Assembly: GCF_016616095.2 (NCBI RefSeq)
Contig: NZ_CP067089.2
Span: forward strand, 2,542,001-2,606,000
Direction: 5' to 3'
DNA from: Breznakiella homolactica
Lineage (GTDB): Bacteria > Spirochaetota > Spirochaetia > Treponematales > Breznakiellaceae
Length of the DNA: 64,000 bases
Both the position numbers and the translations under genes were made by a program. Below, in pieces: positions 875 through 16,677 of the stretch; the first letter of the stretch is position 1, and each line of letters starts with the position of its first letter. Below the pieces are notes generated by a model. It was not told the DNA's origin. It saw only the letters and a program-made list of their open reading frames with translations, and searched no databases.

Positions 875-1636
875 TCATACTTTGACCTTTTCGAATTCTA
901 CCACGAAATCCGCGAGATAATCAGCCATGGCCTGGAGCATCTTTTTGCCCCACTCCTCGGTGGCCGTATTGGGATGGTCGGGACCGATCCATCCGTTGTC
1001 CGTTACGTGAGGGGTCGCCCGGGGAACCGTTACCTGGATGCCTTTGAATTCCACGGTGTAAAAACCCGTTGCCTTGAGCCCCGGAGACACGTCTTTGAGC
1101 TTGAGGTCTTTGTTAATTTCACTCATGTCCACCAGGGATGGATCGATGCCCATGATACCGGCGGTTTCCTCGCCGCCGCCGTGGCCGCCCTTCCATGCGG
1201 GATCCATTTCCCAGACATTGAGCCACCAGTTGAGCAGGGCCAGGAGACAGCCTTCCTTGTCGAGTTCGATACCGATGCGCTCAATGGTTTTGACGTTCCC
1301 GCCGTGGCCGTTGAGGATGATGAATTTTTTCGCGCCGTGCTGGCGGAGGCTGTCGATGATCCGTTTCATAAGCTGGTACAGAATATCCATGCCGATATTG
1401 ATCGTTCCGGGGAAGGGTTCAAGACTGTCGCAGGATCCGTAGGGAATCGTGGGCACGATCAGTATTTCTTTGTTTTTTTCTTCCAGCAGTTCCAGAATCC
1501 GGTCAGGGATCAGGGTATCGGTTCCCAGGGGAAGGTGCCTGCCGTGGCATTCGATGCTGCCCACGGCAATGATAACGATGTCGTGTTTCTTAAAATAAGC
1601 CTCGGCCTGGGGCCAGGTTATATTGGCTAAACGCAT
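875..1636 (-). CDS. Creatininase-family amidohydrolase
   Basis: A 253-residue member of the creatininase/creatinine amidohydrolase family, binuclear metal enzymes that open cyclic amides or hydrolyse related C-N bonds. Metal ligands are visible in GSIECHGRHLPLGTD (Glu29, His31 or His34, Asp40) and in the NGHGGN motif near residue 111; GGHGGGEETAG later supplies further family residues. SD AAGGAG precedes the ATG at 1636. It sits between the binding-protein gene and the M42 peptidase and is probably co-expressed, but a terminator-like stem (1648-1684) directly upstream could reduce read-through. True creatinine hydrolysis is only one activity in this family (others act in cofactor or mycofactocin maturation), so the substrate is open. 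A cyclic dipeptide or an amide released from imported peptides is conceivable but is inference. Confidence 0.85.
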   Translation of the reverse strand: MRLANITWPQAEAYFKKHDIVIIAVGSIECHGRHLPLGTDTLIPDRILELLEEKNKEILIVPTIPYGSCDSLEPFPGTINIGMDILYQLMKRIIDSLRQHGAKKFIILNGHGGNVKTIERIGIELDKEGCLLALLNWWLNVWEMDPAWKGGHGGGEETAGIMGIDPSLVDMSEINKDLKLKDVSPGLKATGFYTVEFKGIQVTVPRATPHVTDNGWIGPDHPNTATEEWGKKMLQAMADYLADFVVEFEKVKV

Positions 1637-1647
1637 AATTTCTCCTT

Positions 1648-1684
1648 AAAAAAAGGGTACACGGACCTTCCGGCCCGGGTACCC
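1648..1684 (-). terminator. Intrinsic terminator-like stem upstream of the creatininase gene
   Basis: Read on the minus strand, GGGTAC and GTACCC pair across an 18-base loop and are followed at once by seven T. It lies after the binding-protein stop and just before the creatininase SD. It may terminate part of the transcript so that the binding protein is made in excess of the enzymes. The loop half can also pair with a segment about 50 bases upstream (see findings). Confidence 0.55.
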
Positions 1685-1777
1685 TGCATTACATCCGCTG
1701 TTCTGCGGGATTTACGTTCCTGCACCGGAAGGCCGGTCCGCCGCGGGATGCGGCGGAAAACCGACCGGTTTCTGGAA

Positions 1778-3307
1778 CTATCTCCGGACCTGGACTCCTT
1801 CGAGTTTGTGGTACCCGATGGGATCAAGGATGAAATTTTCCACTTTGTTGTTCGCGCCGGCATTGATCTCGGTATACACAATGTTGGCGTTGTTGGCAAT
1901 ATCCGCGAGCCGAACCGCGAGATCCCGGTAGGCTGCTTCCCGGATTCTGGGATCGGTGTTGGTGCGGCCGGTGGTTACCAGGCGGTCCACTTCGGGATCG
2001 GAGATAAAGGACCGGTTACCCGGGGCGCCGTGCTGGCTGGAATGTTCCAGTGAGTAGTAGGTATAGTCCGCGTCCTTGGTGGAGGTTACCCAGCCGAAGT
2101 AGCCCATGTCGTGTTCGCCCGCGGAGGTCCGCTGGATAAAGGCGCCGAATTCCAGAACTTCAAGCTTGCAGTTGATGCCCACTTCCCGGAGCATTTCCAC
2201 CACCGCCTGGCAGACTTCCACCCGGTCCTTGTTGTTGTTGACCCAGATGGTACAGCTGAACCCGTTGGGGTATCCCGCGTCGGACAGAAGTTTCTTCGAC
2301 AGCGCCGGATTGTACTCGGGCACGCCGGTGCTGTAGTACCCGTATACCGCGGGGGCTACGATGGCGTCCGCCGGCTCACCGCTGCCGGAGAGCACCGTAT
2401 CGATAATGAGCTGCCGGTCAATGGCGTGGGTAATAGCCTGGCGCACCAGTTTGTTGTCAAAGGGCTTTTTCCGCATGTTCATGGAAATGTAGAAGCAGCT
2501 CAAAGAAGGAGCCGTGTACATGGTAAGATTTTTGTTCGCGTCCACAATTTTGAAGTCGTTGGTGGTCATATCGTAGGCCAGATCGATTTCCCCGGTTTCC
2601 AGGGCGATGGTCCGCTGGGACGCTTCGGGAATGACCTTCATGACCAGGTTTTTGGTTTTGGCGGGGCCGGCGTAGTACTCTTCATACGCTTCAAGCTTAA
2701 CCGAGTCGTTCTGGCTCCAGGACACGAATTTGTAGGGGCCGCTGCCGATGGGCTGCCGGATAAACCGGTCGGGATCGGCCTGGACATAGGCCTTAGGAAC
2801 GATCGCGGCAAAGGGAACCGCCAGGTTCCGGAGGGCCGGCGCGTAGGGAGCCTTGGTGGTCACCACCACGGTGTAGGAATCTTCAATTTTAACATTGTCG
2901 ATGAAGTCGACAATATAGGAAACCGAACCGGAGGCGATGGCCCGGTCAAGGGAGAATTTTACATCATCCGCGGTCAGCTCCGTTCCGTTGTGGAACTTGA
3001 TTCCCTTGCGGATAAAAAACCGGTAGGAAACATCCGACAGCTGTTCCCAGCGTTCCGCGACCTGGGGCACCAGTTCGTTGGTTACTCCGTCGACTTCGAC
3101 CAGGGTGTCGAAGATATGGTTGGTAACCTGGACCGCGGGGGTTTCCTTGCCCACGTGGGGATCAAAGGATGTTACGTCCGCTCCCTGTCCCCAGGTGATG
3201 GTATCCTTGTAGGTTCCGTCTCCCGCGCCGGAATCACTTCCGCCGCCGGCAAAGGCAAAAGCCGCCGCGAGCAGCAATACCGCGGCGATAGAAATAATCT
3301 TTTTCAT
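1778..3307 (-). CDS. Peptide-type ABC transporter substrate-binding protein (SBP family 5)
   Basis: A 509-residue periplasmic or surface binding protein of the Opp/Dpp cluster (SBP_bac_5). The signal peptide runs to AFAFA followed by GGGSDSG; there is no lipobox Cys, so cleavage by signal peptidase I is expected. The domain order is the normal one: N-terminal SFDPH and HIFDTLVEVDG, then FHNGTELTADDVKFSLDR, then GSGPYKF, then the hinge into FDNKLVRQAITHAIDR and the C-terminal lobe. This makes it a useful internal comparison with the permuted paralogue at 13497-15140. SD AGGAGG lies before the ATG at 3307. It follows the two ATPase genes of the same operon. A di- or oligopeptide ligand is likely from the context but not proven. 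Confidence 0.92.
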   Translation of the reverse strand: MKKIISIAAVLLLAAAFAFAGGGSDSGAGDGTYKDTITWGQGADVTSFDPHVGKETPAVQVTNHIFDTLVEVDGVTNELVPQVAERWEQLSDVSYRFFIRKGIKFHNGTELTADDVKFSLDRAIASGSVSYIVDFIDNVKIEDSYTVVVTTKAPYAPALRNLAVPFAAIVPKAYVQADPDRFIRQPIGSGPYKFVSWSQNDSVKLEAYEEYYAGPAKTKNLVMKVIPEASQRTIALETGEIDLAYDMTTNDFKIVDANKNLTMYTAPSLSCFYISMNMRKKPFDNKLVRQAITHAIDRQLIIDTVLSGSGEPADAIVAPAVYGYYSTGVPEYNPALSKKLLSDAGYPNGFSCTIWVNNNKDRVEVCQAVVEMLREVGINCKLEVLEFGAFIQRTSAGEHDMGYFGWVTSTKDADYTYYSLEHSSQHGAPGNRSFISDPEVDRLVTTGRTNTDPRIREAAYRDLAVRLADIANNANIVYTEINAGANNKVENFILDPIGYHKLEGVQVRR

Positions 3308-3351
3308 TTTTGTCCTCCTGAAATTTTTTAAACCGGATAATCCGGCACTGG

Positions 3352-4314
3352 TTACACTAGGGTACAGGCCACAAAATGGTTTTCTTCGGCTTCCTTAAAG
3401 GGAATATCCGCGCCGAGGCACGCATCCGTTACGTAGGGACACCGTTTGGCGAAACGGCATCCCGGCGGCGGTTCAATCGGAGAGGTCAGCTCCCCCTTGA
3501 GGGAAATACGCTGCACATCGAAATCCGGATCCGGAACGGGTATGGCCGAAAGCAGCGCCTGGGTGTAGGGATGCAAAGGTTTTTCGAAGAGCTTTCCCGC
3601 CGGAGCTTTTTCGACCATCTGGCCGAGGTACATAACCAGGATGTCATCGGACAGATGCTTAACCACCGAAAGGTCATGGGTAATGAACAGGTAGGTAAAT
3701 CCCATCCGGTCCTGAAGGTCCTGCATGAGGTTGAGTATCTGGGCCTGGATAGAAACATCCAGGGCGCTGACCGGTTCGTCACAGACAATCATCTTCGGGT
3801 CGAGGGCCAGGACCCGGGCGATACCGATCCGCTGCCGCCGGCCGCCGTCGAGCTCATGGGGGTAGGTGTTGACCAGCCGGGGCGCCAGGCCGACCATGTC
3901 CATGAGTTCCAGGGCCCGCTTCCGGAGGCCCTCCTTATCCCGGGGGGAATAGAGCTTCTGAATGAGCAGGGCCTCGTAGATGGTTTCGCTTACGGTCATC
4001 CGGGGATTGAGGGACGCGAAGGGATCCTGAAAAATAATCTGCATATCCCGGCGCATGGCCTTCATCTTCTTCTTATCGTAGGCGAGGATGTCTTCCCCCT
4101 CAAAGAGGACCTTTCCCGAAGTCGGTTCATGGAGCCGGAGGATGGCCCGGCCCAGGGTGCTCTTGCCGCAGCCGCTTTCACCGACGATCCCCAGGGTTTC
4201 CCCCTTCATAACGGTAAACGAAACATCGTCCACCGCGTGGAGAACACCGAAGGGTGTATTGAAGTATTTCTTGAGATGCTCCACCCGGAGCAGTTCGGTC
4301 TTTGCGTGGGCCAT
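3352..4314 (-). CDS. Oligopeptide ABC transporter ATPase, DppF/OppF type
   Basis: A 320-residue nucleotide-binding subunit that powers peptide uptake with its partner at 4314-5357. Walker [10 protein letters not shown] is at residues 45-53, the signature is [10 protein letters not shown] near 153 (a variant of LSGGQ common in this subfamily), Walker [12 protein letters not shown] near 176, and the H-loop is FITHDLSVV. The C-terminal oligopeptide extension carries [12 protein letters not shown] and a third Cys shortly after; such cysteines bind an iron-sulphur cluster in some relatives. The ATG shares one base with the stop codon of the upstream ATPase gene (TAATG), indicating translational coupling. 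The call is firm at family level. Confidence 0.93.
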
Positions 4315-5357
4315 TACAGAACCTCCCCATTAGCGGACAGCGCAGGTTCCTCACCGGCAGCGTCCGGCTGAGCGGCAGAGGGAAATTCCCTTCCCGCGTA
4401 AATACAGCGGACCAGATGGCCGGTTTCGGTTTCCGTAAGGGCCGGGACAGCCTGTATACACTGCTCCGATACGTAATTGCACCGGGTATGGAATTTGCAG
4501 CCTTCGGGCAGGCAGGTGGGATCGGGCATCAGGCCTTTGATGGGTTTGAGACGCACCACCTCTTTTGCCAGACTGGGAATGGACTCCAGGAGCCCGATGG
4601 TATAGGGATGTTCGGGATTCTTGAATATGTCCCGGAGCGTGCCGTATTCCACGATTTCTCCGGCGTAAATTATGGCCACGTGGTCGCAGTTCTGCGCGAC
4701 TACCCCCAGGTCATGGGTAATAAGCAACATGGAAGTATTCAGCTTGCCCTTGAGGGACTGAATCATTTCCAGCACCTGGGCCTGGATGGTCACATCGAGC
4801 GCCGTGGTGGGCTCATCGGCGATAAGCAATTTTGGGTTGCAGGCAAGAGCGATAGCGATGATGACCCGCTGTTTCATTCCCCCGGAAAACTGGTGGGGAT
4901 ATTCCCCTGCCCGGTCCGCGGAGATCCCCACGGTTTCCAGCATGTCCCGGGCCGCCGCCGCGGCTTCGGCTTTGGTCATTTTATTATGCGCCTGGATTAC
5001 TTCCATTATCTGGTCGCCCACGGTCATGACAGGATTGAGGCTCGTCATGGGATCCTGGAAAATCATGGAAATCTGCCGGCCCCGGATGCCCCGCATTTTC
5101 GCTTCGCTGAGACCCAGCAGTTCCTGTCCGTCAAAGTGTATCTTTCCCCCGCAGATTTCCCCCGGAGGGCTGGGGATGAGACGCATGATCCCCTTTGCCA
5201 GGGTTGTCTTGCCCGCGCCGGTTTCCCCGACGAGACCCAGGGTATGGCCTTCCTTAAGGGACAGGCTGATGCCGTTGAGGGCTTCCACGGTACCATCGTC
5301 GGTTACGTACCGGATGGCCAGATCTTCTATCCGGAGCAGTTCTTTCTCGTCACTCAT
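4314..5357 (-). CDS. Oligopeptide ABC transporter ATPase, DppD/OppD type
   Basis: Second ATPase of the first peptide transporter, about 347 residues. Walker [10 protein letters not shown] lies near residue 45, the signature is FSGGMKQRV, Walker [13 protein letters not shown], and the H-loop [10 protein letters not shown]. The C-terminal domain has the [10 protein letters not shown] cysteine motif. Two starts are possible: GTG at 5366 and ATG at 5357. The ATG with GGTGG five bases upstream is chosen. It follows the permease gene ending at 5373 with almost no gap and overlaps the next ATPase by one base. Confidence 0.92.
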
Positions 5358-5372
5358 AGCAGCCACCGTACC

Positions 5373-6281
5373 TTAGGTTTTGAGTCTCGGATCAAGGGCG
5401 TCCCGGAGTCCGTCGCCCACCACGTTAAGGGCCAGAATCGTGAGCATAATACCGAGCCCCGGAATAACCGTAATATGCCATCCGTCCCGGATATACGAGC
5501 GGGCCCCGGAAAGCATGGATCCCCATTCCGGGGTCGGCGGCTGAATGCCGAGGCCGAGGAAGGAGAGCCCCGCGATAGAAAGGATGGCTCCGGCCACACC
5601 CAGAGTCGCCTGGACGATCAGCGGCGCCATGGAGTTGGGAATAATATATTTGAAGATAATACGGGAATCCCCCGCCCCCAGCGCCCGGGCCGCCTCAATG
5701 TACTCCTGGTCCTTGACCGTGAGAACCGAGGCGCGGACCGTCCTGGCAAAGGTCGGGATATAGGAAATCGCGATGGCGATGAGTACATTGGTCAGGCTCG
5801 TTCCCAGGGCCGCCACAATTGCCGTGGCCAGGAGCATGGACGGTATGGCCAGAAGAATATCCATAAAACGCATGATCGCGTTGTCGGCGAATTTACCGTA
5901 ATACCCCGCCAGGGCGCCGAGGACTCCGCCGATCAGCGTGGAAATGACAATCGCGAAGGTTCCCATGAACAGGGAATACCGGACGCCCCAGAGCATGCGG
6001 AGCAGTATGTTCCGCCCGAATTCATCCAGGCCGAAGGGGTACTGCCAGCTCGGTCCCTGCAGGCGCATGCGGAGATTCTGTTTTATCACGTAGTTGTTGT
6101 ACACCGACTGACTGGTGACAAAGTCAATGACAATGGTACCGACGGCGATCACCACCAGGATGGAAAGAAACCCAAGCCCCACCAGGGCGAGTTTGTTTTT
6201 CTTGAGCCGCCGCCAGACTTCGGCCCAGAGGGATCTTTGCTTTTGTCCGCCTGATTTTGCGGAAGTTTTTTTCAGTGCCAT
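5373..6281 (-). CDS. Peptide ABC transporter permease, DppC type
   Basis: A 302-residue inner-membrane permease of the BPD type. A basic cytoplasmic N-terminus is followed by a first helix near residues 32-52 and five more hydrophobic segments. The EAA loop that docks with the ATPases is visible as EAARALGAGDSRIIFKYIIP. It pairs with the DppB-type permease upstream, whose stop overlaps this ATG by one base (TAATG). Confidence 0.92.
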   Translation of the reverse strand: MALKKTSAKSGGQKQRSLWAEVWRRLKKNKLALVGLGFLSILVVIAVGTIVIDFVTSQSVYNNYVIKQNLRMRLQGPSWQYPFGLDEFGRNILLRMLWGVRYSLFMGTFAIVISTLIGGVLGALAGYYGKFADNAIMRFMDILLAIPSMLLATAIVAALGTSLTNVLIAIAISYIPTFARTVRASVLTVKDQEYIEAARALGAGDSRIIFKYIIPNSMAPLIVQATLGVAGAILSIAGLSFLGLGIQPPTPEWGSMLSGARSYIRDGWHITVIPGLGIMLTILALNVVGDGLRDALDPRLKT

Positions 6282-7243
6282 TATACGACCCCCTTGGACG
6301 TGGTTTTATACTGGGATTTAATCCTCGGATCGACAAAGGCATAGATGATATCCACACAAAGGTTAACAATGGAAAAGGTCACCGCCATAAAAATGACTGC
6401 CCCGAGCACCATGGGAATGTCCTTGCTGCCGATGGAATCAACCATAAGGCGGCCCAGACCCGGCCAGGAGAACACCGTCTCTGTCAGCATGGCTCCGCCG
6501 AGGAGAACCCCGAACTGGAGTCCCACAGCGGTGATGATCGGGATGAGGGCGTTTTTGAACATATGCCTGCGGGTTACTTCCTGCTCGGTTATTCCCTTGG
6601 AACGGGCGGTAAAAATATAATCCTGCCGGATAACCTCCAGCATGGATGACCGGGTCATACGGACCACCGTGGCGGCGGCGCCGGTCCCCAGGGTCAGGGC
6701 AGGCAGGACAATACTTCTCAGGAGCGGAATAAAGCCCGTTCCCATGCCCTGGGATGGAAGCCATCCCAGCTTGAGGGCAAAGAGCAGCGAAAACAGGAGC
6801 CCCAGCCAGAAGTTGGGCATGGAGACCCCCACCAGGGATAGGACCACCGAAACATTGTCCATGGCTGTGTACTGTTTCTTCGCGGATAAAATCCCCACGG
6901 GAATACCGATGAGGAGCGCCACAAAAATCCCCGCGAAGGCCAGGATAACCGTATTGGGGAATTTGTCCCAGACCTGGTCCCAGACACTGATTTTGTTTTT
7001 ATAGGAGGTTCCCAGATCACCCCTGAGCATGTTCTTCATGTAATTGAAATACCTGACCAGAAGGGGGTCGTTGAGTCCCAGTTCTTCCCGTTTCAGTTCC
7101 AGCGCCTCCGCGGTGGCCTGGTCCCCAAGGATGATTGCCGCGGGATCTCCGGGGGTCAGGTTGAGGATAAAAAAGACAATGAAGGTAACGCCCAGAAGAA
7201 CGGGAATCATAAGAAGCAGTCTTTTCAGAATGTACTTAATCAT
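6281..7243 (-). CDS. Peptide ABC transporter permease, DppB type
   Basis: The DppB-type half of the inner-membrane channel, about 320 residues. The N-terminus MIKYILKRLLLMIPVLLGV and the LTPGDPAAIILG motif after the first helix are typical of DppB. The docking loop reads FTARSKGITEQEVTRRHMFK. ATG 7243 is chosen over an upstream in-frame TTG (7267) because the protein then starts at the usual family position. It is the first transporter gene of the operon and lies 175 bases downstream of the regulator gene on the same strand. Confidence 0.92.
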   Translation of the reverse strand: MIKYILKRLLLMIPVLLGVTFIVFFILNLTPGDPAAIILGDQATAEALELKREELGLNDPLLVRYFNYMKNMLRGDLGTSYKNKISVWDQVWDKFPNTVILAFAGIFVALLIGIPVGILSAKKQYTAMDNVSVVLSLVGVSMPNFWLGLLFSLLFALKLGWLPSQGMGTGFIPLLRSIVLPALTLGTGAAATVVRMTRSSMLEVIRQDYIFTARSKGITEQEVTRRHMFKNALIPIITAVGLQFGVLLGGAMLTETVFSWPGLGRLMVDSIGSKDIPMVLGAVIFMAVTFSIVNLCVDIIYAFVDPRIKSQYKTTSKGVV

Positions 7244-7417
7244 GGCAGCCCCCGCAACAGGATTCAATAAAAATGAATAAAAATCAATATTACCGGGGAA
7301 TTTTCTGTATTTTTATTCAGAATATTCCCGTTTTCTGCAAGAAAATACGTTTCAATTCTCCAAAAAATCCAATAATATCATCACCACCGCAGTGGTCTGG
7401 GAACACACCCAGGATTG

Positions 7418-8080
7418 CTATTTGCTTTCCAGAGTCCGGATGTGCATGTATACGGTATTCTTTGTTATGCCGAGGTCCTTGGAAATAAGCTTTACTGAGT
7501 TTTTCAGCTTGAATATTCCCTGGTGGTACAGGAGGGTAATGATCTCCTTGTTTTTCTGTGACACGGGGATTGAAGAATCCGATTCTACATTGGCTTTTGT
7601 TTTCTCCAGGGCCTTTACGATCAGCTCATCGGATTCACTGATAAAATTCTCGGTTACGTATTCGGTGTAATTGTTGTTGGGAAGAAAGCTTTGGAGCACC
7701 GTGGAAAAAGACGTATCCATATAAAAGTTGATACATAAAAGTCCGATAACCGTATCCTGCTCCCCAAAGATGGCGATAGTTACGGCTTTAACGGGTTTTC
7801 CGTATTTGCTTTTCGAATGGTAGGCAATAAAGTGCGCTCCGTCACTTTCGGTAATTTTTTCCAGCATGGAAAGGGCAAGGTCCGTTATGGGGGCGCCTTC
7901 CTTCCGCCCCGAGTGCATACCGTTTACGATTTTGATAACCGAATGGTCGAGGTCATCCAGATCATGGAGTACGAACTCGAAAGCTCCGCCCAGATACGCC
8001 GCCAATCCGTCCAGGCAGGCTTTGTAGGAATTTAAAATATGTTTATCGGTGCTGGATAGGGAACTCTTGGTCTTTGACAT
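7418..8080 (-). CDS. YheO/DauR-type helix-turn-helix regulator
   Basis: A 220-residue cytoplasmic regulator with the YheO-like PAS domain (residues about 15-120, with the family stretch FEFVLHDLDDLDHSVIKI and GMHSGRKEGAPITDL) and a C-terminal DauR-type HTH (about 170-218, ending ISKDLGITKNTVYMHIRTLE). Relatives sense amino acids or similar small molecules, for example DauR of D-arginine catabolism. Its position just upstream of the peptide-transporter operon on the same strand suggests local control. No clear SD is needed to decide the ATG at 8080. Confidence 0.85.
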   Translation of the reverse strand: MSKTKSSLSSTDKHILNSYKACLDGLAAYLGGAFEFVLHDLDDLDHSVIKIVNGMHSGRKEGAPITDLALSMLEKITESDGAHFIAYHSKSKYGKPVKAVTIAIFGEQDTVIGLLCINFYMDTSFSTVLQSFLPNNNYTEYVTENFISESDELIVKALEKTKANVESDSSIPVSQKNKEIITLLYHQGIFKLKNSVKLISKDLGITKNTVYMHIRTLESK

Positions 8081-8491: not shown

Positions 8492-9418
8492 TTACAGTTT
8501 GTCCAGGAAGGGGATTCCGGTTACTGCCAGCTGTTTTTTGAGCTCCCGGAAATCCTCTTTGTATTTTGCTTCCATGGCGGGCTCGAGGCGGCCGAAGGGT
8601 TCCCGGCAGTAGCCCGCGTCGAGGCCCATCCACTGCATCTCGGCTTTTATCCCGACCTGGAAACCCCGGTCCAGGGTGTGCATGATGATGGCGTTGGCAA
8701 TACGCTGTTTTTCCGCTGCCGCGAAAAGGTTTCCCTCCTGCACCGCTTTGTATATATCCAGGAACGGTTCGGGAATCAAATTATAGAAAGAACCGATGAT
8801 ACCATCCGCCCCGAAGCTCAGTCCGGTCATGGCCATTTCATCCGCCCCGGAATAGACCATAAAATCCTGTCCGATTTCTTCTTTTATACGCATCATCTCA
8901 AACTGGGATGTAAGGGTGTACTTGATGCCTTCCACCCCTTTTATCGACGCCAGGGATTTTATAAAATTGAAACCCACGGCCCCGGCGAGGGCAATATTGT
9001 ACACAACCATGGGGATATTCACGGATTCTGAAATATCCCGGTAATAGCTGTACATCTGGGACTCGGAGAATTTCCAGTAGAAGGGCGGCACCGAGGAAAT
9101 CGCGTCCGCTCCGGCGGCTTCAGCGTGTTTTGCCAGGTCCGCGGAAATTCTCGTCCCGATGGCGCCCACATGGACAATCACCGGGACACGGCCTTTCACT
9201 TCATCAATCACATCCTCAACCAGTTTCTTCCGTTCCTCCGGGGTCATGAGAAATCCCTCTCCGGTGCTTCCGGTGAGGTACAGACCATGGATACCCCGGT
9301 CAATCAAATAGGAAGTTACCTTCCGCTGGCGCTTTTCATCGTAGTTTTCGTGTTCATCAAAGCAGCTGACCAGCGCAGGGATGACACCTTTAATTTCCTT
9401 AAGGGGAACGCGGCTCAT
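8492..9418 (-). CDS. N-acetylneuraminate-lyase/dihydrodipicolinate-synthase family aldolase
   Basis: A 308-residue class I (Schiff-base) pyruvate aldolase of the DapA/NanA superfamily. The carboxylate-binding GSTGEGF is at residues 50-56, the catalytic tyrosine is Tyr140 in VVYNIALAG, and the Schiff-base lysine is Lys166 in GIKYTLT. The positions match sialic-acid lyase (Tyr137 and Lys165 in E. coli NanA), and the KYT context is closer to lyases than to DapA. SD AAGGAG is present. It is the last gene of the operon with the second Opp-type transporter, and a YhcH/NanQ-like gene lies at the other end of the locus, so cleavage of sialic acid or a similar keto-acid sugar to pyruvate is the best guess. 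DapA-like or other keto-acid aldolase activity remains possible. Confidence 0.8.
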   Translation of the reverse strand: MSRVPLKEIKGVIPALVSCFDEHENYDEKRQRKVTSYLIDRGIHGLYLTGSTGEGFLMTPEERKKLVEDVIDEVKGRVPVIVHVGAIGTRISADLAKHAEAAGADAISSVPPFYWKFSESQMYSYYRDISESVNIPMVVYNIALAGAVGFNFIKSLASIKGVEGIKYTLTSQFEMMRIKEEIGQDFMVYSGADEMAMTGLSFGADGIIGSFYNLIPEPFLDIYKAVQEGNLFAAAEKQRIANAIIMHTLDRGFQVGIKAEMQWMGLDAGYCREPFGRLEPAMEAKYKEDFRELKKQLAVTGIPFLDKL

Positions 9419-9421
9419 AGT

Positions 9422-10471
9422 TTACTCCTTAATCTCCGTTGCATTAATAAAATGGCAGGAAGCGTAATGTTCCTTGTTGTTGACCAGATATTTTTTTAAA
9501 CCCGGCGCTTCGGTCCGGCAGCGTTCCCGGCACTCGGGGCATCGGGGATGGAAATGGCATCCCGCCGGCGGGTTTATGGGGCTGGGTACGTCGCCCTGGA
9601 GCATGATCCGTTTTGATCTGCGGTCCAGGTCAGCCACAGGGATGGCTGAAAGCAGCGCCTTGGTATACGGGTGTAGGGTATTCTTGTAGAGATCCTCACT
9701 TTCGGAAAGCTCAACGATTTTTCCCAGGTACATCACCGCGATCCGGTCGCTGATATATTCCACCACACTTAAATCATGGGTGATGAACACATAGGTCAGC
9801 CCCCGTTCATCCTTCAGTTTTTTCAGAAGTTTGATTACCTGAGCCTGGATGGAAACATCCAGGGCGCTGACCGCTTCGTCGCAGACGATCAGTTCGGGAT
9901 CAACGCTGAGGGCCCGGGCGATGCCGATCCGCTGGCGCTGGCCGCCGGAAAACTCATGGGGATAACGGTCCATGTAATCGGCCTGCATGTTCACCGCTTC
10001 CAGGAGTCCGGCGATTTTTTTCCGCCGTTCTGTTCTGGTTTTAATGCCGAACTTTTTCAGCGGATCCTCCAGGGAACCGAAGATGGTAAACGCCGGATTC
10101 AGCGATGAGTACGGGTCCTGGAAAACAATCTGGAGCCGTTTCCGGAATTCCTGAAGCTCCCGGGGTTTGAGCTTCATCAGGTCAACCTGTTCCGGCGTGC
10201 TCCCGCCAGCGTCAGCGGCCGGCGCGGAGGTTCCGCGGTATTCCACGGACCCGCCGCTGGCTTTAACCAGCTGCAGGATGGTTTTTCCCAGAGTGGTTTT
10301 TCCGCAGCCGCTTTCGCCCACAAGACCCAGGGTCTCGCCGCGGTATATGTCCAGGTCAACACCGTCCAGCGCCTTTACATGGCCCACGGTTTTCTTGAAC
10401 ACCCCTTTGTGCACGGGGAACCAGGTCCTGAGATCCCGGATTCTGAGAATCACTTCCTTGTTATCGGTCAT
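9422..10471 (-). CDS. Opp/Dpp-type ABC transporter ATPase (F subunit), second system
   Basis: About 349 residues. Walker A GESGCGKTT, signature FSGGQRQRIG, Walker B LIVCDEAVSALD (Glu-Ala where Glu-Pro is usual) and H-loop FITHDLSVV are visible. Between Walker A and the Q-loop there is a family-atypical insert rich in Ala and Gly (GTSAPAADAGG). The C-terminal domain has PPAGCHFHPRCPEC. The ATG at 10471 is preceded by GGAGGG and overlaps the stop of the upstream ATPase as ATGA. It forms the uptake ATPase pair with 10468-11472 for the permuted binding protein. Confidence 0.92.
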   Translation of the reverse strand: MTDNKEVILRIRDLRTWFPVHKGVFKKTVGHVKALDGVDLDIYRGETLGLVGESGCGKTTLGKTILQLVKASGGSVEYRGTSAPAADAGGSTPEQVDLMKLKPRELQEFRKRLQIVFQDPYSSLNPAFTIFGSLEDPLKKFGIKTRTERRKKIAGLLEAVNMQADYMDRYPHEFSGGQRQRIGIARALSVDPELIVCDEAVSALDVSIQAQVIKLLKKLKDERGLTYVFITHDLSVVEYISDRIAVMYLGKIVELSESEDLYKNTLHPYTKALLSAIPVADLDRRSKRIMLQGDVPSPINPPAGCHFHPRCPECRERCRTEAPGLKKYLVNNKEHYASCHFINATEIKE

Positions 10472-11472
10472 ACCGGTTTCCCTCCGCTTTTCCAGCACCG
10501 GACCCCATGGGTCCCGCCGAGGCTCACCTCTTCGGGCATGGATGAGCACCGTTCATGGCAGTAATCACAGCGGGGGGCAAACTGGCAGCCCGGGGGACGG
10601 TTAAACGGATCCGGGGTACTTCCCTTAATCGGTTCCAGGACCTGATTCTTTCCTTTGCCCAGAATGGGAATCGATTCGAGAAGCGCCTGGGTGTAGGGGT
10701 GCGCCGGAGTCCTGAGAACTTCCTCAACGGTTCCCCGCTCCACGATATTCCCCATATACATAACGATCACATCGTCGGCCAGTTCCGTAACCACCCCCAT
10801 GTCATGGGTGATCAGCATGATCGCCGTTTCCCGGGTTTCCTTGAGCTTTTCAATAAGCTCGAATATCTGGGCCTGGATAGTCACATCCAGGGCCGTGGTC
10901 GGCTCATCGGCGATCAGGAGCTGGGGGTCGCAGGCCATGGCCATGGCGATCATGGAACGCTGGCGCATTCCCCCGGAAAACTGGTGGGGGTATTCCCTGA
11001 CCCGCTGTTCCGGAGCGGGGATTCCCATGCTGCGGAGCAGGTCCACGGATTTTTCCCGGCGCTCTTTTTTATTCATCGCCGTATGGTACTGGAGGTTTTC
11101 ACCGATCTGGAATCCGATGGAATAAACAGGATTGAGGGCCGTCATGGGGTCCTGAAAAATCATGGCCATTTCCTGTCCCCGGAGGGACCGCATGATCCTG
11201 CCGTTTGCCTCGAGCCGGTCAACCCGGATCGGTCCATTTTCTTCACTGTTGTAGGTGATGGATCCCTTTTCTATTCTCGCCAGCTGGGGGAGCAGCCGCA
11301 TGATGGCGGACGCGGTAACACTCTTGCCGCAGCCGCTTTCCCCCACAACACCCAGGGTCCGCTTTCTGCAAATATCAAATGAAACACCCCGGACGGCTTT
11401 GTTGCACCGCTGGTTGTTATAGAAATACACTTCCAGGTCCTTCACCTGGACCAGGATATCTTTTTGGTCCAT
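10468..11472 (-). CDS. Opp/Dpp-type ABC transporter ATPase (D subunit), second system
   Basis: A 334-residue ATPase with Walker A GESGCGKS near residue 41, signature FSGGMRQRS, Walker [13 protein letters not shown] and H-loop LITHDMGVV. The C-terminal cysteine motif is GCQFAPRCDYC. Start ATG 11472 follows TAGGAAC. It lies four bases after the OppC-type permease gene and is coupled to the next ATPase by ATGA. Confidence 0.92.
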   Translation of the reverse strand: MDQKDILVQVKDLEVYFYNNQRCNKAVRGVSFDICRKRTLGVVGESGCGKSVTASAIMRLLPQLARIEKGSITYNSEENGPIRVDRLEANGRIMRSLRGQEMAMIFQDPMTALNPVYSIGFQIGENLQYHTAMNKKERREKSVDLLRSMGIPAPEQRVREYPHQFSGGMRQRSMIAMAMACDPQLLIADEPTTALDVTIQAQIFELIEKLKETRETAIMLITHDMGVVTELADDVIVMYMGNIVERGTVEEVLRTPAHPYTQALLESIPILGKGKNQVLEPIKGSTPDPFNRPPGCQFAPRCDYCHERCSSMPEEVSLGGTHGVRCWKSGGKPV

Positions 11473-11476
11473 GTTC

Positions 11477-12409
11477 CTACCCCTGCTGGGACGGATCGGT
11501 GGAATCCCTGAAGCCGTCTCCGATAAAGTTGATGCTCAGCACGAAAAGAGAAATCACGATACCCACCGGAAGCCAAATCCACCAGTTCTCCCGGAGAATC
11601 GTGATGTCCTGAGCAACATTAAGAATGTTCCCCCAAGTCGCGATCTGCAGAGGGACCCCCAGGCCGAGAAAACTCAACCCCGCTTCTTCCAGAATAAACA
11701 TGGCGGTGCTGAGGGTAATATTCACCGCGATGGGACCCAGGGCATTGGGAAGCATGTGCTTGAAGCAGATAACGAAACTGTTGATTCCGAAGGCCCTGAG
11801 GGACTGAACGTACTCCTCTTCCCGGATCGACAGTATCCGCGCCCGGGCCATGCGGTACATGCTGCCCCAGCCGGTAATAATAAAAATGACGATCAGGTTC
11901 ATGAGACTCTGCCCGATTATCGTAACCAATAAAAGCACCAGGATGATCTGGGGAAAACTCATAAAGACTTCCGAAACCCGGAGGCAGGCCGCGTCAAAAA
12001 AACCGCCCTTGTATCCCGCGTAGCATCCCAGGGAAACGCCGATCAGAGCCGCTCCCAGGGCGCTCCCGAATCCTACCAGGATAGAAATCCTCCCGCCGTA
12101 TACGATCCGGGCGAAGATGTCCCGGCCGACCTTATCGGTTCCGAGGATATGTTCCGATGAAGGAGACTGAAGGATTGAATTGAGATCTATCGCCAGGGGG
12201 TTGTACCGGCAGATCAGGGGGGCGAAAACCGAAGCCAGAAGGATCACGGAAAAAACAGCAAGCCCGAATACGGAAAGCTTATTGTTGAAGAATTTCCGCA
12301 GCGCCCGGCTGATTTCCCGGCTGCTTAGGAGGCCCGCTTCTTCCTTCGCCAGGATCTTATCCATCTGCCGGTCCAGGCGGCTCTTTCGTCTTACCGCAGT
12401 ATCACTCAT
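11477..12409 (-). CDS. Opp/Dpp-type ABC transporter permease (C subunit), second system
   Basis: A 310-residue inner-membrane permease with a long cytoplasmic N-terminus (first helix near residues 49-71) and about six transmembrane segments. The docking loop reads YVQSLRAFGINSFVICFKHMLP; the usual EAA-R-LG start is replaced by QSLRAFG, a modest deviation. SD AAGGAG lies before ATG 12409. Its partner is the B-type permease ending at 12419. Confidence 0.9.
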   Translation of the reverse strand: MSDTAVRRKSRLDRQMDKILAKEEAGLLSSREISRALRKFFNNKLSVFGLAVFSVILLASVFAPLICRYNPLAIDLNSILQSPSSEHILGTDKVGRDIFARIVYGGRISILVGFGSALGAALIGVSLGCYAGYKGGFFDAACLRVSEVFMSFPQIILVLLLVTIIGQSLMNLIVIFIITGWGSMYRMARARILSIREEEYVQSLRAFGINSFVICFKHMLPNALGPIAVNITLSTAMFILEEAGLSFLGLGVPLQIATWGNILNVAQDITILRENWWIWLPVGIVISLFVLSINFIGDGFRDSTDPSQQG

Positions 12410-12418
12410 AGCCGCTCC

Positions 12419-13378
12419 TTAACTCAATTTAACCCGCGGGTCCAGCAGTGCGGTGAACACATCCACCAGAAAGCTCGCCAGGAGCATCACCGAAACCATA
12501 AGCAGGGCGATCATCATAACCAGGGGATAATTCTGGCCCCGCACCGCGGAGACGAATTCCCGCCCGATCCCCGGCCACTGAAAAACCTGCTCAAGCACAA
12601 CGGAGCCTCCCACCAGGGTCGGCAGCCGGAATCCTATAAGCACAATAACCGGGGTCAATGCCACCCGGAATCCGTGGACAAAGTTTACCCGCCATTCGGG
12701 AAGCCCCTTGCTCCGGGCGGTTTTGATAAAGTCCTTGTTCATGGCGTCCAGCATACTGGACCGGGAATACCGCATGACCCCGGCGGTCATGGAAAGGGCC
12801 ATCACCAGGGAGGGCAGGACGAGATTCGGGACGCGGTCGAAAAAGCCGGTATACTCCGGACTCAGCCGGCCTCCGGCGGGCAGCCAGTTGAGACGGAGGG
12901 AGAATATCAGGATGGCCACCAGGCCGAAGAAAAACTGGGGAATGGAAACCCCCAGCATACCCGCCACGGTCAGGGCGGTATCGCCGATGGACCCGCGCTT
13001 GAGGGCACTCACGGTCCCGAGGACACTCCCGAAAACCGTGGAAAGGAGCAGCGCGATCCCCGCCAGTTCCAGAGTCGCCGGGAGTCTGGTGGCCACAATG
13101 GATTTTATGGCCACGCCGCTGGTAAGGCTGTACCCGAAATCGCCCTTCACCACATTAAAGAGCCATTTTCCGTAACGCACGATAAACGGATCGTTCAGCC
13201 CCAGGGCTTCCCGCATGGCATTGAGCTGGGCTTCGGTCATGGAAGCCATGGCTTCCGGTCCGATCATATAGGAAACAGGATCCCCGGGGGTCAGCTCAAG
13301 TCCGAGATAAATAAGGAAACTGATAACCAGCAGCATGGGAAGCATTATCAGTAAACGCCGGATAATATATGCAGCCAC
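12419..13378 (-). CDS. Opp/Dpp-type ABC transporter permease (B subunit), second system
   Basis: A 319-residue permease beginning MAAYIIRRLLIMLPMLL with the LTPGDPVSYMIG motif after helix 1 and the docking loop FIKTARSKGLPEWRVNF. The start is GTG at 13378, supported by AAGGGG six bases upstream and the family start position. It is the first gene after an intrinsic terminator (13454-13481) that separates it from the binding-protein gene, so permease expression probably depends on read-through. Confidence 0.92.
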   Translation of the reverse strand: MAAYIIRRLLIMLPMLLVISFLIYLGLELTPGDPVSYMIGPEAMASMTEAQLNAMREALGLNDPFIVRYGKWLFNVVKGDFGYSLTSGVAIKSIVATRLPATLELAGIALLLSTVFGSVLGTVSALKRGSIGDTALTVAGMLGVSIPQFFFGLVAILIFSLRLNWLPAGGRLSPEYTGFFDRVPNLVLPSLVMALSMTAGVMRYSRSSMLDAMNKDFIKTARSKGLPEWRVNFVHGFRVALTPVIVLIGFRLPTLVGGSVVLEQVFQWPGIGREFVSAVRGQNYPLVMMIALLMVSVMLLASFLVDVFTALLDPRVKLS

Positions 13379-13453
13379 GGGAATCCCCTTCAGGGAACCG
13401 CTAAAAAACCCGGTTGAAGTTTTTAGAAGTTCTCTTCAGCAAAAATTCAATAG

Positions 13454-13481
13454 AAAAAACGCCGGCCCAGACGGACCGGCG
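13454..13481 (-). terminator. Rho-independent terminator after the permuted binding-protein gene
   Basis: On the minus strand CGCCGG and CCGGCG pair across a 10-base loop and are followed by six T. It lies between the binding-protein stop (13497) and the OppB-type start (13378). Partial termination here would give more binding protein than permease, a usual stoichiometry for ABC importers. Confidence 0.75.
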
Positions 13482-13496
13482 AAGACGTATCTGTTT

Positions 13497-15140
13497 TTAT
13501 TTCTTGGGGAATTTATTCACAAAGAACAGCCGGGTATAGAACATATTCACGGGGAAAACCTTCATACCGGAAACTTTTTCCAGAGCAATGGCGTCATTGG
13601 AATTCTTGGTGTATCCGTAATCGAGGTTGTTGGCATTGGCGTTGATCACCAGGTTGGCGTCATTCTCGCCGCTGGGGTACGAACGGATTTCATCGATTTT
13701 TGCCACGCCCTTGTAGTAATCCCGGAAAGGCACGAATACCGCGTAGTCGTTCATCTTGGCTTCCCTGACCATAAAGGGACCGGAGCCGACGGGTTTCTGC
13801 CAGTAAGCGTTCTGCTGGAACTGGGCAGGGTCGGTGCCGATAAAATAACTCTGGGGAAGCGGGGCGAACTGGGAGAAGGTCATGAGCATGTTGGGATCCA
13901 GGGCGGCAAATTTAATGGTAATGGTATTGCCGTTAATCTGGATTCCCCGTACATCCTGGGCCGACCCGGCTTTGAATTCCGCGGCGCCGTCAATGGCGTT
14001 GAAGGTCGAAGCAAACACCGCGTGAATAGCGGGAACCTTAAGGGCGTACTCGATACTCCATTTGACATCCTGGGGGGTGATGGGTTTTCCGTCATGCCAT
14101 TTGATATTGTTCCGCATGGTAAAGGTAAGGGTCATGTTGTCCGGAGAAACTGTGTATGACGAAGCCAGGGCGCCTTCCTTGGGAGCGAGGGAACCGTCCG
14201 CAACGATAAGCCGGTCAAAGAGAACCTTGGAACCGATATACACTCCGGGGTTGAACCAGGGATGCTCAAAAAACTGCACGGGCCCGGCGTTGGTCTTAAG
14301 AACCTTTTTCCCGGAAGCGTCGGGTTTTACATCCCAGTTGATGATGTTCCAGTCGTAATTGTACTGGGCGTTGCCGTTGGTGTCCCCGGTCCGGGTAACC
14401 GTATCCCGGCAGAAAATGAACAGGGGCTGGTAATACAGCGGAATGGCGAACAGGTTTTCGTTTTCATATTTCTGCAGTTCGTTGAAAGCCGCCTTCTGTT
14501 TTGCCACATCCGCGGTGGCGTTGGTGGCCGCGATAAGCGTGTCGAGCTGGGGATCCGTAGGGGTATGGGAATTGCCCGCGGAACCGCCGATGTATTTATT
14601 GTAGTATTCATGGAGAACCAGGGCGGCGGTGGCGCCGTACAGGACATCCCAATCCACCGCGGAAGGACCGTTTACCGGATCCTTGGGCGGCATCCACAGG
14701 AGGGTATTAAAATCTCCCTGTATCCTGCGGAAGTTGGCCTTAATCCCGACCGCTTCGAGGTAAGCCTGAACGGCAACCATCAGATCCACGGTCTGCTGGT
14801 CGTCATAGTAATACCCCACATCCAGGGTGTAGTTCGGATCCCACTTGGCCGCCTTGAGCAGCTCCATGGCTTTGGACGGATTGTACGTATAGTTATTCAA
14901 TCCGGAAACTTTCCACTCACCATTGGGGGTAAGGCTGTTCGCGGGAACAGCCTTGTCCAGGAGCAGGGTTCTGCAGATTGTATCCATATCAATCGCGTAA
15001 GCAATCGCCTGGCGAACCTGGGGGTCCGACAGGGGATTGCTGTTTACGGCTCCGGTCCCGCCCGCTTTGTCACTTCCGCCGCCTGCGAAAACACAGACCG
15101 AAAGAGCTGCCAGCAAAACCGAAAGACACAGTTTTTTCAT
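13497..15140 (-). CDS. SBP family 5 binding protein with circularly permuted domain order
   Basis: 547 residues from ATG 15140 (SD GGAGGATCCC). The signal peptide ends VCVFA-GGGSDK. All family-5 motifs are present but the two halves are swapped. After the signal peptide comes the part normally found in the second half: LSDPQVRQAIAYAID (about 37-51), YNPSKAMELLKAA, LEAVGIKANFRRIQGDFN. From about residue 300 comes the normal first half: VLFDRLIVADGSLAP, SYTVSPDNMTLTFTMRNNIKWHDGKPITPQDVKWSIEYA (around 347), VGSGPFMVREA, and finally MFYTRLFFVNKFPKK at the C-terminus. Joining this C-terminus to residue 35 recreates the usual order (FYTRLFFVNK then LSDPQVRQAIAYAID). The paralogue at 1778-3307 has the normal order. 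Reading frame, signal peptide, SD and stop are all intact. It is the likely ligand-binding component of the transporter at 9422-13378. Confidence 0.88.
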   Translation of the reverse strand: MKKLCLSVLLAALSVCVFAGGGSDKAGGTGAVNSNPLSDPQVRQAIAYAIDMDTICRTLLLDKAVPANSLTPNGEWKVSGLNNYTYNPSKAMELLKAAKWDPNYTLDVGYYYDDQQTVDLMVAVQAYLEAVGIKANFRRIQGDFNTLLWMPPKDPVNGPSAVDWDVLYGATAALVLHEYYNKYIGGSAGNSHTPTDPQLDTLIAATNATADVAKQKAAFNELQKYENENLFAIPLYYQPLFIFCRDTVTRTGDTNGNAQYNYDWNIINWDVKPDASGKKVLKTNAGPVQFFEHPWFNPGVYIGSKVLFDRLIVADGSLAPKEGALASSYTVSPDNMTLTFTMRNNIKWHDGKPITPQDVKWSIEYALKVPAIHAVFASTFNAIDGAAEFKAGSAQDVRGIQINGNTITIKFAALDPNMLMTFSQFAPLPQSYFIGTDPAQFQQNAYWQKPVGSGPFMVREAKMNDYAVFVPFRDYYKGVAKIDEIRSYPSGENDANLVINANANNLDYGYTKNSNDAIALEKVSGMKVFPVNMFYTRLFFVNKFPKK

Positions 15141-15177
15141 GGGATCCTCCTGAAATTCATTCGAAATAGGTAAGATC

Positions 15178-15206
15178 ATGCTATGACGGGAATTCCTATT
15201 TGTCAA
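15178..15206 (-). promoter_or_regulatory. Sigma70-type promoter for the permuted binding-protein operon
   Basis: On the minus strand TTGACA (15206-15201), a 17-base spacer and TAGCAT (15183-15178). The start codon is 38 bases further on with a strong SD. An inverted AAAATACT site lies just upstream of the -35 box. Confidence 0.6.
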
Positions 15207-15217
15207 GAAATTTTGAT

Positions 15218-15305
15218 AGTATTTTTACATTTTCTTATAAAACATAAAAATTTTCTTTCAAGTTTGAAAATACTGCGGTAAGATAGAACAGGGTAAGAAA
15301 ATACT
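15218..15305. promoter_or_regulatory. Candidate RpiR operators (three AAAATACT sites)
   Basis: AGTATTTT at 15218-15225 (inverted), AAAATACT at 15267-15274 and AAAATACT at 15298-15305 lie between the binding-protein gene and the divergent RpiR-type regulator gene. The arrangement fits autoregulation plus control of the transporter. Binding is inferred from position and repetition only. Confidence 0.4.
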
Positions 15306-15322
15306 TTATGATAAGGAACGAT

Positions 15323-16216
15323 ATGAATTATTCCCTTGACGTAATTATCCAGATAGGCGGGGCCATTAATACATTCAGCAAGACTGAAAAGAAAATAGCC
15401 CAGTTTATCATGGACAAACCCAGCGAGGCGCTTGCCCTCTCAATCACCGATCTGGCGAAGACATGCAATGTCAGTGAAGCTACGGTATTCCGGTTCTGCA
15501 AAACCCTGAATCTCAACGGATACCAGGAACTCCGGGTGGAGCTTATGAAGGCGATTTCAAAACGCCAGAACCCGGAAAAGCTGGAAGACGCGGCTATCGA
15601 AGACCGGGACAGCCTCCAGGTACTGGCTAAAAAAGTTATGCACCTCCAGCAGGAGGCTTTGGAACGGGCCTACAACGCCCTGGATTTCAAAGCCCTTGAA
15701 AAAGCCATAACCCTGATAGACCGGGCGGAAAAGGTATACTTTTTCGGAACCGGGAATTCCTTCCTGAACGCCATGATAGCGAAAACCCAGTTCATGGATG
15801 TTTCCCATAAATTCCATGTGGAACAGGATATTTACGCCCAGGCGTACGCGGCGTCCCTCCTTCCGAAAGGGACCGCCGCGGTATTTTTTTCCTACAGCGG
15901 CGCTACCCAATGTACCGTCGAGGTGGCAAAACTTGCAAAGGCTGCGGGGGCAAAAATAATCGCCATCACCCGGTTTATCCGTTCACCGCTGACCGAATAC
16001 TGCGACGTCGTCATCCAGTGCGGAGTCAATGAGGCGCCTAACCAGCAGGGGTCGCTTTCGGTAAAAGTCGGAACCATGTACCTGCTGGATATTATTTTTA
16101 CCGATTATATCCGCCGCAACCAGAGCGCGGTGACGAGAAACCGCGAGATTTCGGGACACGCGGTCTTTGACCGGATTCCGACGAAAACGAAAAAAAAGAA
16201 AAAGGAAGAACCATGA
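15323..16216 (+). CDS. RpiR-family transcriptional regulator (HTH plus SIS domain)
   Basis: About 297 residues. The N-terminal HTH_6 domain (residues about 1-77) has SKTEKKIAQFIM and SITDLAKTCNVSEATVFRFCKTLNLNGYQELR. The C-terminal SIS sugar-phosphate-binding domain (about 105-245) has VYFFGTGNSFLNAMIA and FFSYSGATQCTVEVAKLAK. The C-terminus is lysine rich (KTKKKKKEEP). ATG 15323 with AAGGA five bases upstream is preferred to ATG 15308, which lacks an SD. It is divergent from the transporter operon and overlaps the yhcH-like gene by ATGA. RpiR-type NanR proteins control sialic-acid genes in several bacteria; that role here is inference. Confidence 0.9.
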   Translation: MNYSLDVIIQIGGAINTFSKTEKKIAQFIMDKPSEALALSITDLAKTCNVSEATVFRFCKTLNLNGYQELRVELMKAISKRQNPEKLEDAAIEDRDSLQVLAKKVMHLQQEALERAYNALDFKALEKAITLIDRAEKVYFFGTGNSFLNAMIAKTQFMDVSHKFHVEQDIYAQAYAASLLPKGTAAVFFSYSGATQCTVEVAKLAKAAGAKIIAITRFIRSPLTEYCDVVIQCGVNEAPNQQGSLSVKVGTMYLLDIIFTDYIRRNQSAVTRNREISGHAVFDRIPTKTKKKKKEEP

Positions 16217-16677
16217 TTTACGATACTACGGAAAACGCGGATCAGTACCGGGGGATCTCCTCCAATCTGGATAAGGCTCTTGATTTTATAAAAAGCTGTA
16301 CCCCCGATATTACCGAAGGCCGTCACGAGATCGACGGGGAGAAGGTGTTTGCCCTGGTCAGCAATTACCAAAGCAAACACCAACAGGAAAGCAGCCCCGA
16401 GGCGCATGTGCGGTACATTGATCTGCAGATGGTGCTGTCCGGTGAGGAATTCCTGATCTGCGGTTTCCTGAAGGATGCCCGGAAGAAACTGTCCGGAGAT
16501 CCGGATAAGGATATTGCCTTTTACGAAGCCGACGGGATACCCCTGCCCCTTTCTCCGGGAAAATTTGCCGTTCTGTTTCCCGCGGACCTCCACCAGCCGG
16601 GAATCCGCGTGCACGAACCGGCTCCGGTAAAGAAACTTGTTATTAAAATTGAAATGCAACAAAAAAGCATGGTATAA
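16213..16677 (+). CDS. YhcH/YjgK/YiaL (NanQ-like) family protein
   Basis: A 154-residue cupin-like protein of the DUF386 family. Members of this family assist sialic-acid use (NanQ, anomerase activity) or other sugar pathways. Family motifs are GRHEIDGEKVFALVSNY, EAHVRYIDLQMVLSGEE and FAVLFPADLHQPGI, in which the His and Glu metal ligands can be seen. It is translationally coupled to the RpiR gene (ATGA). The last codons (KSMV and the stop) fall inside the left end of palindromic repeat copy 2, so the repeat may have set or extended the C-terminus. Confidence 0.87.
   Translation: MIYDTTENADQYRGISSNLDKALDFIKSCTPDITEGRHEIDGEKVFALVSNYQSKHQQESSPEAHVRYIDLQMVLSGEEFLICGFLKDARKKLSGDPDKDIAFYEADGIPLPLSPGKFAVLFPADLHQPGIRVHEPAPVKKLVIKIEMQQKSMV

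Follow-up and report, generated by a model that had tools for sequence, protein, structure and literature searches.

The gene described here encodes a family-5 substrate-binding protein (SBP) of Breznakiella homolactica that is circularly permuted by nature and very likely functional, although that it functions is inferred without an assay or binding data. The gene lies in a 64,000-nucleotide stretch of DNA, called the window below, and its ATG start, reading frame and stop codon are all intact (Table 1). The original prediction, made from sequence alone, had claimed the coordinates, frame, start, stop, Shine-Dalgarno sequence and signal peptide of this gene. All of these held, the last as a signal-peptide-like N-terminus, and no canonical lipobox was seen in the signal region. 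Beyond that prediction, the permutation is a widely shared trait of a protein family that has a close unpermuted sister group. That the trait is also old is our reading.

Table 1. Features of the permuted SBP gene and its neighbours (window coordinates; residue numbers refer to the SBP).
Feature	Coordinates	Strand	Basis
Family-5 SBP gene, circularly permuted, 547 aa	13497..15140	-	ORF, translation, Pfam
Shine-Dalgarno AGGAGG	15146..15151	-	upstream sequence read directly
Signal peptide, residues 1-19	15084..15140	-	cleavage site inferred by eye
Half B, residues 32-276: C-terminal half of ordinary SBP, now first	14313..15047	-	Pfam 210-326
Linker, about residues 272-284: ancestral C-terminus to ancestral mature N-terminus	14289..14327	-	junction alignments
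Half A, residues 279-547: N-terminal half of ordinary SBP, now last	13500..14306	-	Pfam 4-206
C-terminal strand, residues 535-541	13518..13538	-	AlphaFold2 secondary structure, junction alignment
Terminator-like hairpin and T tract between SBP gene and dppB	13460..13481	-	consensus match only
DppB-type permease, same operon	12419..13378	-	profile match, relatives
DppC-type permease	11477..12409	-	named from place and relatives
DppD-type ATPase	10468..11472	-	named from place and relatives
DppF-type ATPase	9422..10549	-	profile match
DHDPS-family lyase, nearest N-acetylneuraminate lyase model	8492..9418	-	247.5 bits, cut-off 281
RpiR-family regulator (HTH_6 and SIS), divergent	15308..16216	+	domain matches
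YhcH/YjgK/YiaL family	16213..16677	+	N-acetylneuraminate anomerase model, 96.9 bits, cut-off 160

The whole protein scores 197.9 bits against Pfam SBP_bac_5 (PF00496; gathering cut-off 32.4) and matches as two stretches in reversed order, not as one collinear match. Searched singly, the halves score 87.1 and 120.6 bits, with residues 34-142 on profile positions 210-326 and residues 323-541 on positions 4-206. They tile the profile without overlap, and the break point falls between positions 206 and 210. We take half B to be domain III and the last part of domain I, and half A to be domains I and II. The paralogue at 1778-3307 of the window gives one PF00496 stretch (profile 1-365 of 368), as does a normal-order relative from Proteiniclasticum ruminis (L057; profile 2-327). 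The original prediction had proposed swapped halves of SBP family 5, to be checked by two partial Pfam matches in reversed order, refuted by a single collinear full-length match, and controlled by the collinear paralogue. The swap, the two partial matches and the control all held, and the refuting outcome was not seen. No NCBIfam model scored above its cut-off for the window SBP.

The PDB was searched with a profile built from 39 permuted sequences of the family. On chain 8efz, residue 253 is matched by both position 534 and position 25 of that profile; profile 295-534 corresponds to chain 35-253, 25-96 to 253-324, and 180-264 to 412-497, which is the chain C-terminus. L057 covers 8efz in a single stretch (66-557 on chain 29-495), and DppA 268-481 aligns to profile 23-233. 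The permuted SBP contains no duplicated part and lacks no large one, with profile 97-179 left unaligned on 8efz. A natural permutation should have its parts present once, its ends abutting and unpermuted homologues in existence, and all three points are met. The C-terminal strand of the permuted chain corresponds to the strand through which an ordinary SBP continues into domain III, inferred to be the first hinge crossing.

Both chain orders were modelled by AlphaFold2 and compared with known SBPs by Foldseek, as the original prediction had proposed. The window SBP, modelled with 39 permuted sequences, reaches a pLDDT of 90.2 and a pTM of 0.86, and segments of three or more residues with pLDDT below 50 are confined to residues 1-7 and 9-32. 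The new N-terminus precedes a helix at residues 40-49, and the C-terminus is the strand listed in Table 1. The 50 best Foldseek rows of this model, by title family-5 type binding proteins, span 229-299 columns with TMq 0.29-0.40, about half of known SBPs, whereas the 50 best rows of the normal-order sister model span 529-589 columns with TMq 0.57-0.69, nearly the full SBP length. Half-length matches for the permuted protein and full-length matches for its sister are as expected of a permutation under a sequential aligner. The sister model is poorer (8 sequences, pLDDT 69) and serves as a control for alignment coverage, not as a structural model. The permuted model predicts that the bilobed three-domain cluster C fold is kept; no coordinates were inspected and there is no experimental structure. 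Both termini of DppA and OppA are known to lie in domain I, which is the background to the earlier remark that the two ends share a lobe, and here too no coordinates were inspected.

The permuted order recurs in many genomes. A scan of genome contigs returned 43 loci, 41 of them permuted by ORF reading. Complete genes account for 37 of these; the other four are cut at the 5' end (L026), frameshifted (L054), whole in both halves with no in-frame Met ahead of them (L035), or on a contig that stops after half B, where the order rests on the signal peptide directly preceding that half (L058). Only two of the 43 loci have the normal order, the close L057 and the distant L063 (30%). Half-HMMs, made from eight normal-order proteins only, were also applied to ORFs of at least 220 aa from 122 loci and the window. 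Both halves were found in 99 distinct ORFs, 45 normal and 54 permuted, the latter including the window ORF and one frameshifted fragment. Since models from normal-order proteins alone give 54 permuted ORFs among 99, chance is excluded. All 54 fall inside one family, and no permuted ORF was found outside it.

By record title the hosts are spirochaetes, Bacillota (Dethiosulfatibacter, Acidaminobacter), Pseudomonadota (Devosia, Rhodobacteraceae, Oceanospirillaceae, Chromatiales), Deltaproteobacteria-labelled records and candidate division KSB3, many of the records being metagenome-assembled genomes. A search for permuted homologues in other treponemes had been suggested, and the permuted family extends across several phyla beyond spirochaetes. 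Within Spirochaetota the permuted form is sparse (5/392 genomes: G000, G416, G134, G290 and G026), and three further genomes at the threshold hold distant normal-order kin only. Around Devosia riboflavina 30 of 300 genomes match, 27 collinear with the permuted query, two in pieces (G886, G954) and one distant. Around Dethiosulfatibacter 21 of 249 match, with high identity in G040 itself only. A tblastn search (E 1e-20) of 72,556 plasmid records found no plasmid-borne relative. In D. algicola the permuted gene is split over frames (L054:6001-7547), and in D. rhodophyticola no in-frame Met or recognisable signal peptide precedes the mature part (L035:5920-7533). These apparently damaged genes in two Devosia genomes may reflect loss in that lineage.

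The closest unpermuted relatives were found around Proteiniclasticum, where seven of 194 genomes match and five (G039, G422, G423, G461, G502) encode a normal-order sister with 51-54% identity in half A and 54-62% in half B. These sisters, from Proteiniclasticum ruminis and four other genomes (L057, L077-L081), have the same operon in 4/5 cases (contig long enough). They differ from the permuted form in their ordinary order, in the unbroken loop at the cut site and in being predicted lipoproteins. A lipobox was found in two of 50 permuted and six of seven normal proteins, a difference confounded by the kind of host cell.

The junction in L057 reads YTRLFYMNKFKGADGKVSPLADVRVRQAIAYAID. Permuted proteins begin, after the signal peptide, at NPLSDVRVRQAIAYAID-like residues and end shortly past an NKF-like motif. 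The loop at the cut site is unbroken in all five sisters and aligns without gaps to two distant normal-order kin (L084 and L003); it has the same length in L068, exceeds it by one or two residues in L086-L091 and is shorter in the window paralogue. The typical permuted linker, NWTVEPDxxGKxVLYTNTGPxxFFE, consists of the old C-terminus (NWEVKAD-like in the sister) followed by what was once the mature N-terminus (in the sister, VMYSNGGPVEFFE), without signal peptide or spacer. It is shorter in L002, L065 and L066.

Sequence divergence points to a working protein. Between the window gene and its nearest relative (L060, 77% identical) dN is 0.17 and dS 2.3, which is saturated; five other pairs, one of them normal-order, give dN of 0.09-0.15 and dS of 0.7-2.0 in four, dS being not computable in the fifth. 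Strong purifying selection supports a functional protein, and function itself remains an inference. The earlier statement that the gene looks functional is supported in this way and by the conserved operon, not by an assay.

The genes for DppB, DppC, DppD and DppF lie downstream of the SBP gene in permuted and normal members alike. All four are present in 37 of the 41 permuted loci, and the other four loci (L026, L030, L034, L058) reach contig ends. Identity of the Dpp proteins to those of the window is 57-87% in permuted loci and 63-71% in four close normal-order loci, and the DppBCDF genes are orthologous for either SBP order. Terminator-like sites number four in 13300-15400, compared with 2.9 +/- 1.9 in shuffled sequences, and the hairpin between the SBP gene and dppB has the longest stem of them. 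This hairpin, a consensus match only, could raise the abundance of the binding protein above that of the permeases. A second, unpermuted SBP5-DppBCDF operon lies at 875-7267 (minus strand), adjoining a creatininase-family gene and accompanied by a YheO-like regulator gene at 7418-8080.

A DHDPS-family gene on the same strand accompanies 20 of the 41 permuted loci (identity at least 54% in 18), a more distant, divergently oriented one (30-35%) is present in 11 more, and in the remaining 10 none was found in the flank examined. It also occurs in 4/4 close (48-56%) and 6/7 distant (34-53%) normal-order loci. Among the neighbours of L024 are members of the amidohydrolase, glucosamine-6-phosphate isomerase and phosphofructokinase families, together with genes that resemble the ROK (31%) and YhcH (27%) proteins of the window. 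From such neighbours the cargo may be inferred to be a sialic-acid-like 2-keto-3-deoxy sugar acid, a call that could as readily prove wrong as right, binding and uptake being inferred as well. It is weak because the lyase and YhcH fall below the NanA and anomerase cut-offs and because NanE, present in the genome, lies about 105 kb from the operon. FAD-binding oxidoreductase genes adjoin the operon in both forms (L057:12437-13549, normal; L024:4236-5846, permuted) and are possible markers of the cargo pathway. Six distant normal-order loci (L126, L127, L132-L135) combine SBP-DppBCDF with a nearby same-strand NanA-like gene, and they suggest a wider keto-sugar-acid transporter family.

The phylogeny bears on whether the order changed once or twice. 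Separate trees of half A and half B agree in that the smallest group containing all 53 permuted rows adds the same five sisters and no distant normal row. SBP-only trees were made with FastTree on 80 rows (duplicates, L054 and most rows below 100 bits left out) and on reduced sets of 44 of those 80 and 38 of the 44. In all three the root is unstable and the close normal-order group is placed within the permuted ones, a position that would need two changes. An AU test on the 38 rows does not reject one permuted clade (p 0.201). The transporter tree (41 rows, 1300 columns, no mixture model; seven incomplete, distant or other-operon loci and 11 near-duplicates left out) leaves one permuted row outside (L129, from the genome of L066; support 93), and here too one clade is not rejected (AU, p 0.358). 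A long-branch warning applies to the 38-row SBP tree and the 41-row transporter tree. The combined SBP and transporter tree (33 of the 41 rows, 1820 columns) has one permuted clade beside the close normal form, with a support of 13 only. Because of the combined tree, the AU tests and the unbroken loop in the normal-order sister, we infer that a single ancient permutation is the likely explanation.

Under a single permutation, the ancestor would have been a normal-order SBP in an SBP-DppBCDF-lyase operon. The first step would most likely have been a tandem duplication and fusion of the SBP gene, after which the leading copy would have lost its first half and the trailing copy its last half. The outcome would be the order signal peptide, half B, linker, half A. 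The break would lie in the loop that leads from the first hinge strand to domain III, and a short linker would connect the old C-terminus to the old mature N-terminus. The permuted protein would then have replaced the ancestral SBP in the same transporter, and the operon would have spread between phyla by horizontal transfer. No duplication intermediate was found: among ORFs of at least 220 aa from the 122 loci and the window, none carries either half twice; the two half-A stretches that the half-HMMs report, in L063 only, are consecutive parts of one match.

The folded Venus-flytrap would stay the same, each lobe becoming one continuous stretch of chain and only one of the two lobe-to-lobe hinge crossings remaining covalent. 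Both consequences are inferred from the alignment of DppA 268-481 and from the known domain limits of DppA. The N-terminus or lipid anchor would leave from the hinge side of domain III and not from domain I.

The protein resembles SBP family 5 or cluster C (PF00496; DppA, OppA, NikA, SatA) in both Pfam halves, its predicted fold and its DppBCDF-type operon, and differs from DppA, OppA, NikA and SatA in the reversed half order and, by inference, in the cut hinge crossing and the N-terminus on domain III. SatABCD of Haemophilus ducreyi is a sialic acid ABC importer (PMC11364026; PDB 5z99). As in SatABCD, a family-5 type SBP feeds an ABC importer, and 5z99 is rank 49 of the 50 best Foldseek rows; SatA itself, however, has the normal order and is only distantly related (phmmer matches part of the chain at E 6.5e-9), and the cargo of the window SBP is inferred only.

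In the open-access literature searched we found no description of a permutation in family 5 or cluster C, and the claim that none had been described for the family held to that extent. The novelty is limited by a natural permutation already published for another SBP class, Tp0684 (MglB-2) of Treponema pallidum, a naturally permuted cluster B SBP assigned to 'Cluster Bc', whose topology is common to relatives in treponemes and Gram-positives (PMC4990184). Both cases are natural permutations of bilobed SBPs with relatives of the same topology. Tp0684, however, has the cluster B (type I) sugar-binding fold (PMC4990184) and the window SBP belongs to cluster C. In Tp0684 three N-lobe strands were moved and a fourth hinge crossing was added (PMC4990184), whereas in the window SBP one of two covalent crossings is inferred to be lost. 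The permuted part of Tp0684 retains only 13% identity (PMC4990184), while both halves of the window SBP are recognisable by sequence. Membership of Cluster Bc was considered and is not met, the window SBP matching Pfam family 5 only and its structural hits being family-5 type proteins.

A bolder reading, which is possible, is that selection acted on the permutation as a change in mechanism: a single covalent crossing, free ends at the hinge and a tether on the other lobe. It competes with a neutral reading, in which hinge dynamics, anchoring and docking are unaffected; this rival concerns the selected mechanism and not the permutation itself. Both chain orders come with a conserved operon and conserved permeases, and engineered SBP permutants are known to work; the two points favour neutrality. 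Against it, long retention and wide spread indicate at least that there is no large cost, and the lipobox is rarer in permuted proteins, subject to the confounding by host noted above. On balance we lean slightly towards the neutral reading.

Two alternatives seem unlikely: that this loop was permuted independently two or more times, and that the clostridial group went back to normal order after one permutation. In their favour are the normal-order group among permuted rows in the SBP-only trees, the divergent permuted pair L002/L066 outside in the 80-row FastTree and the well-supported placement of L129 outside the other permuted rows in the transporter tree. Against them, the AU tests allow one clade and the combined tree recovers it, if weakly. 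A return to normal order would have had to rebuild a loop that is gap-free relative to L084 and L003. Independent events are further opposed by the common cut point and the similar linkers, although three of the linkers are shorter.

A chimera, in which the reversed halves would come from two separate SBP genes, is very unlikely. Recombination would be possible in the many genomes with several SBP_bac_5 genes, but both halves have close normal-order relatives in the same five clostridial ORFs, and the tree of each half groups the 53 permuted rows with those five and with no distant normal row. We reject the chimera because kinship agrees half by half. An assembly artefact, whether two ordinary SBP genes side by side or a misassembly of the region, had been named beforehand as a refuting outcome and is all but excluded: the window genome is known from assembled sequence only and many relatives are metagenome-assembled, but independent genomes share the order, with the same cut in 54 distinct ORFs, in isolates (Dethiosulfatibacter aminovorans DSM 17477, Thalassovita autumnalis CECT 5118, several Devosia) and in one-contig genomes (G000, G416).

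This permutation adds a natural case in cluster C SBPs to that in cluster B. It also carries a warning for annotation: permuted proteins are undercounted wherever collinear models, sequential structure aligners or half-coverage filters are relied on. Permuted and unpermuted forms, 51-62% identical and beside orthologous transporter subunits, make a good natural experiment in which one can compare directly how chain order affects folding, movement of the hinge, secretion or anchoring, and docking to the ABC importer. If the bolder reading were true, the permutation would mean altered opening dynamics or an altered presentation to the DppBCDF-type importer, and the family would be a distinct subclass ('cluster C, permuted') that spread horizontally together with its transporter.
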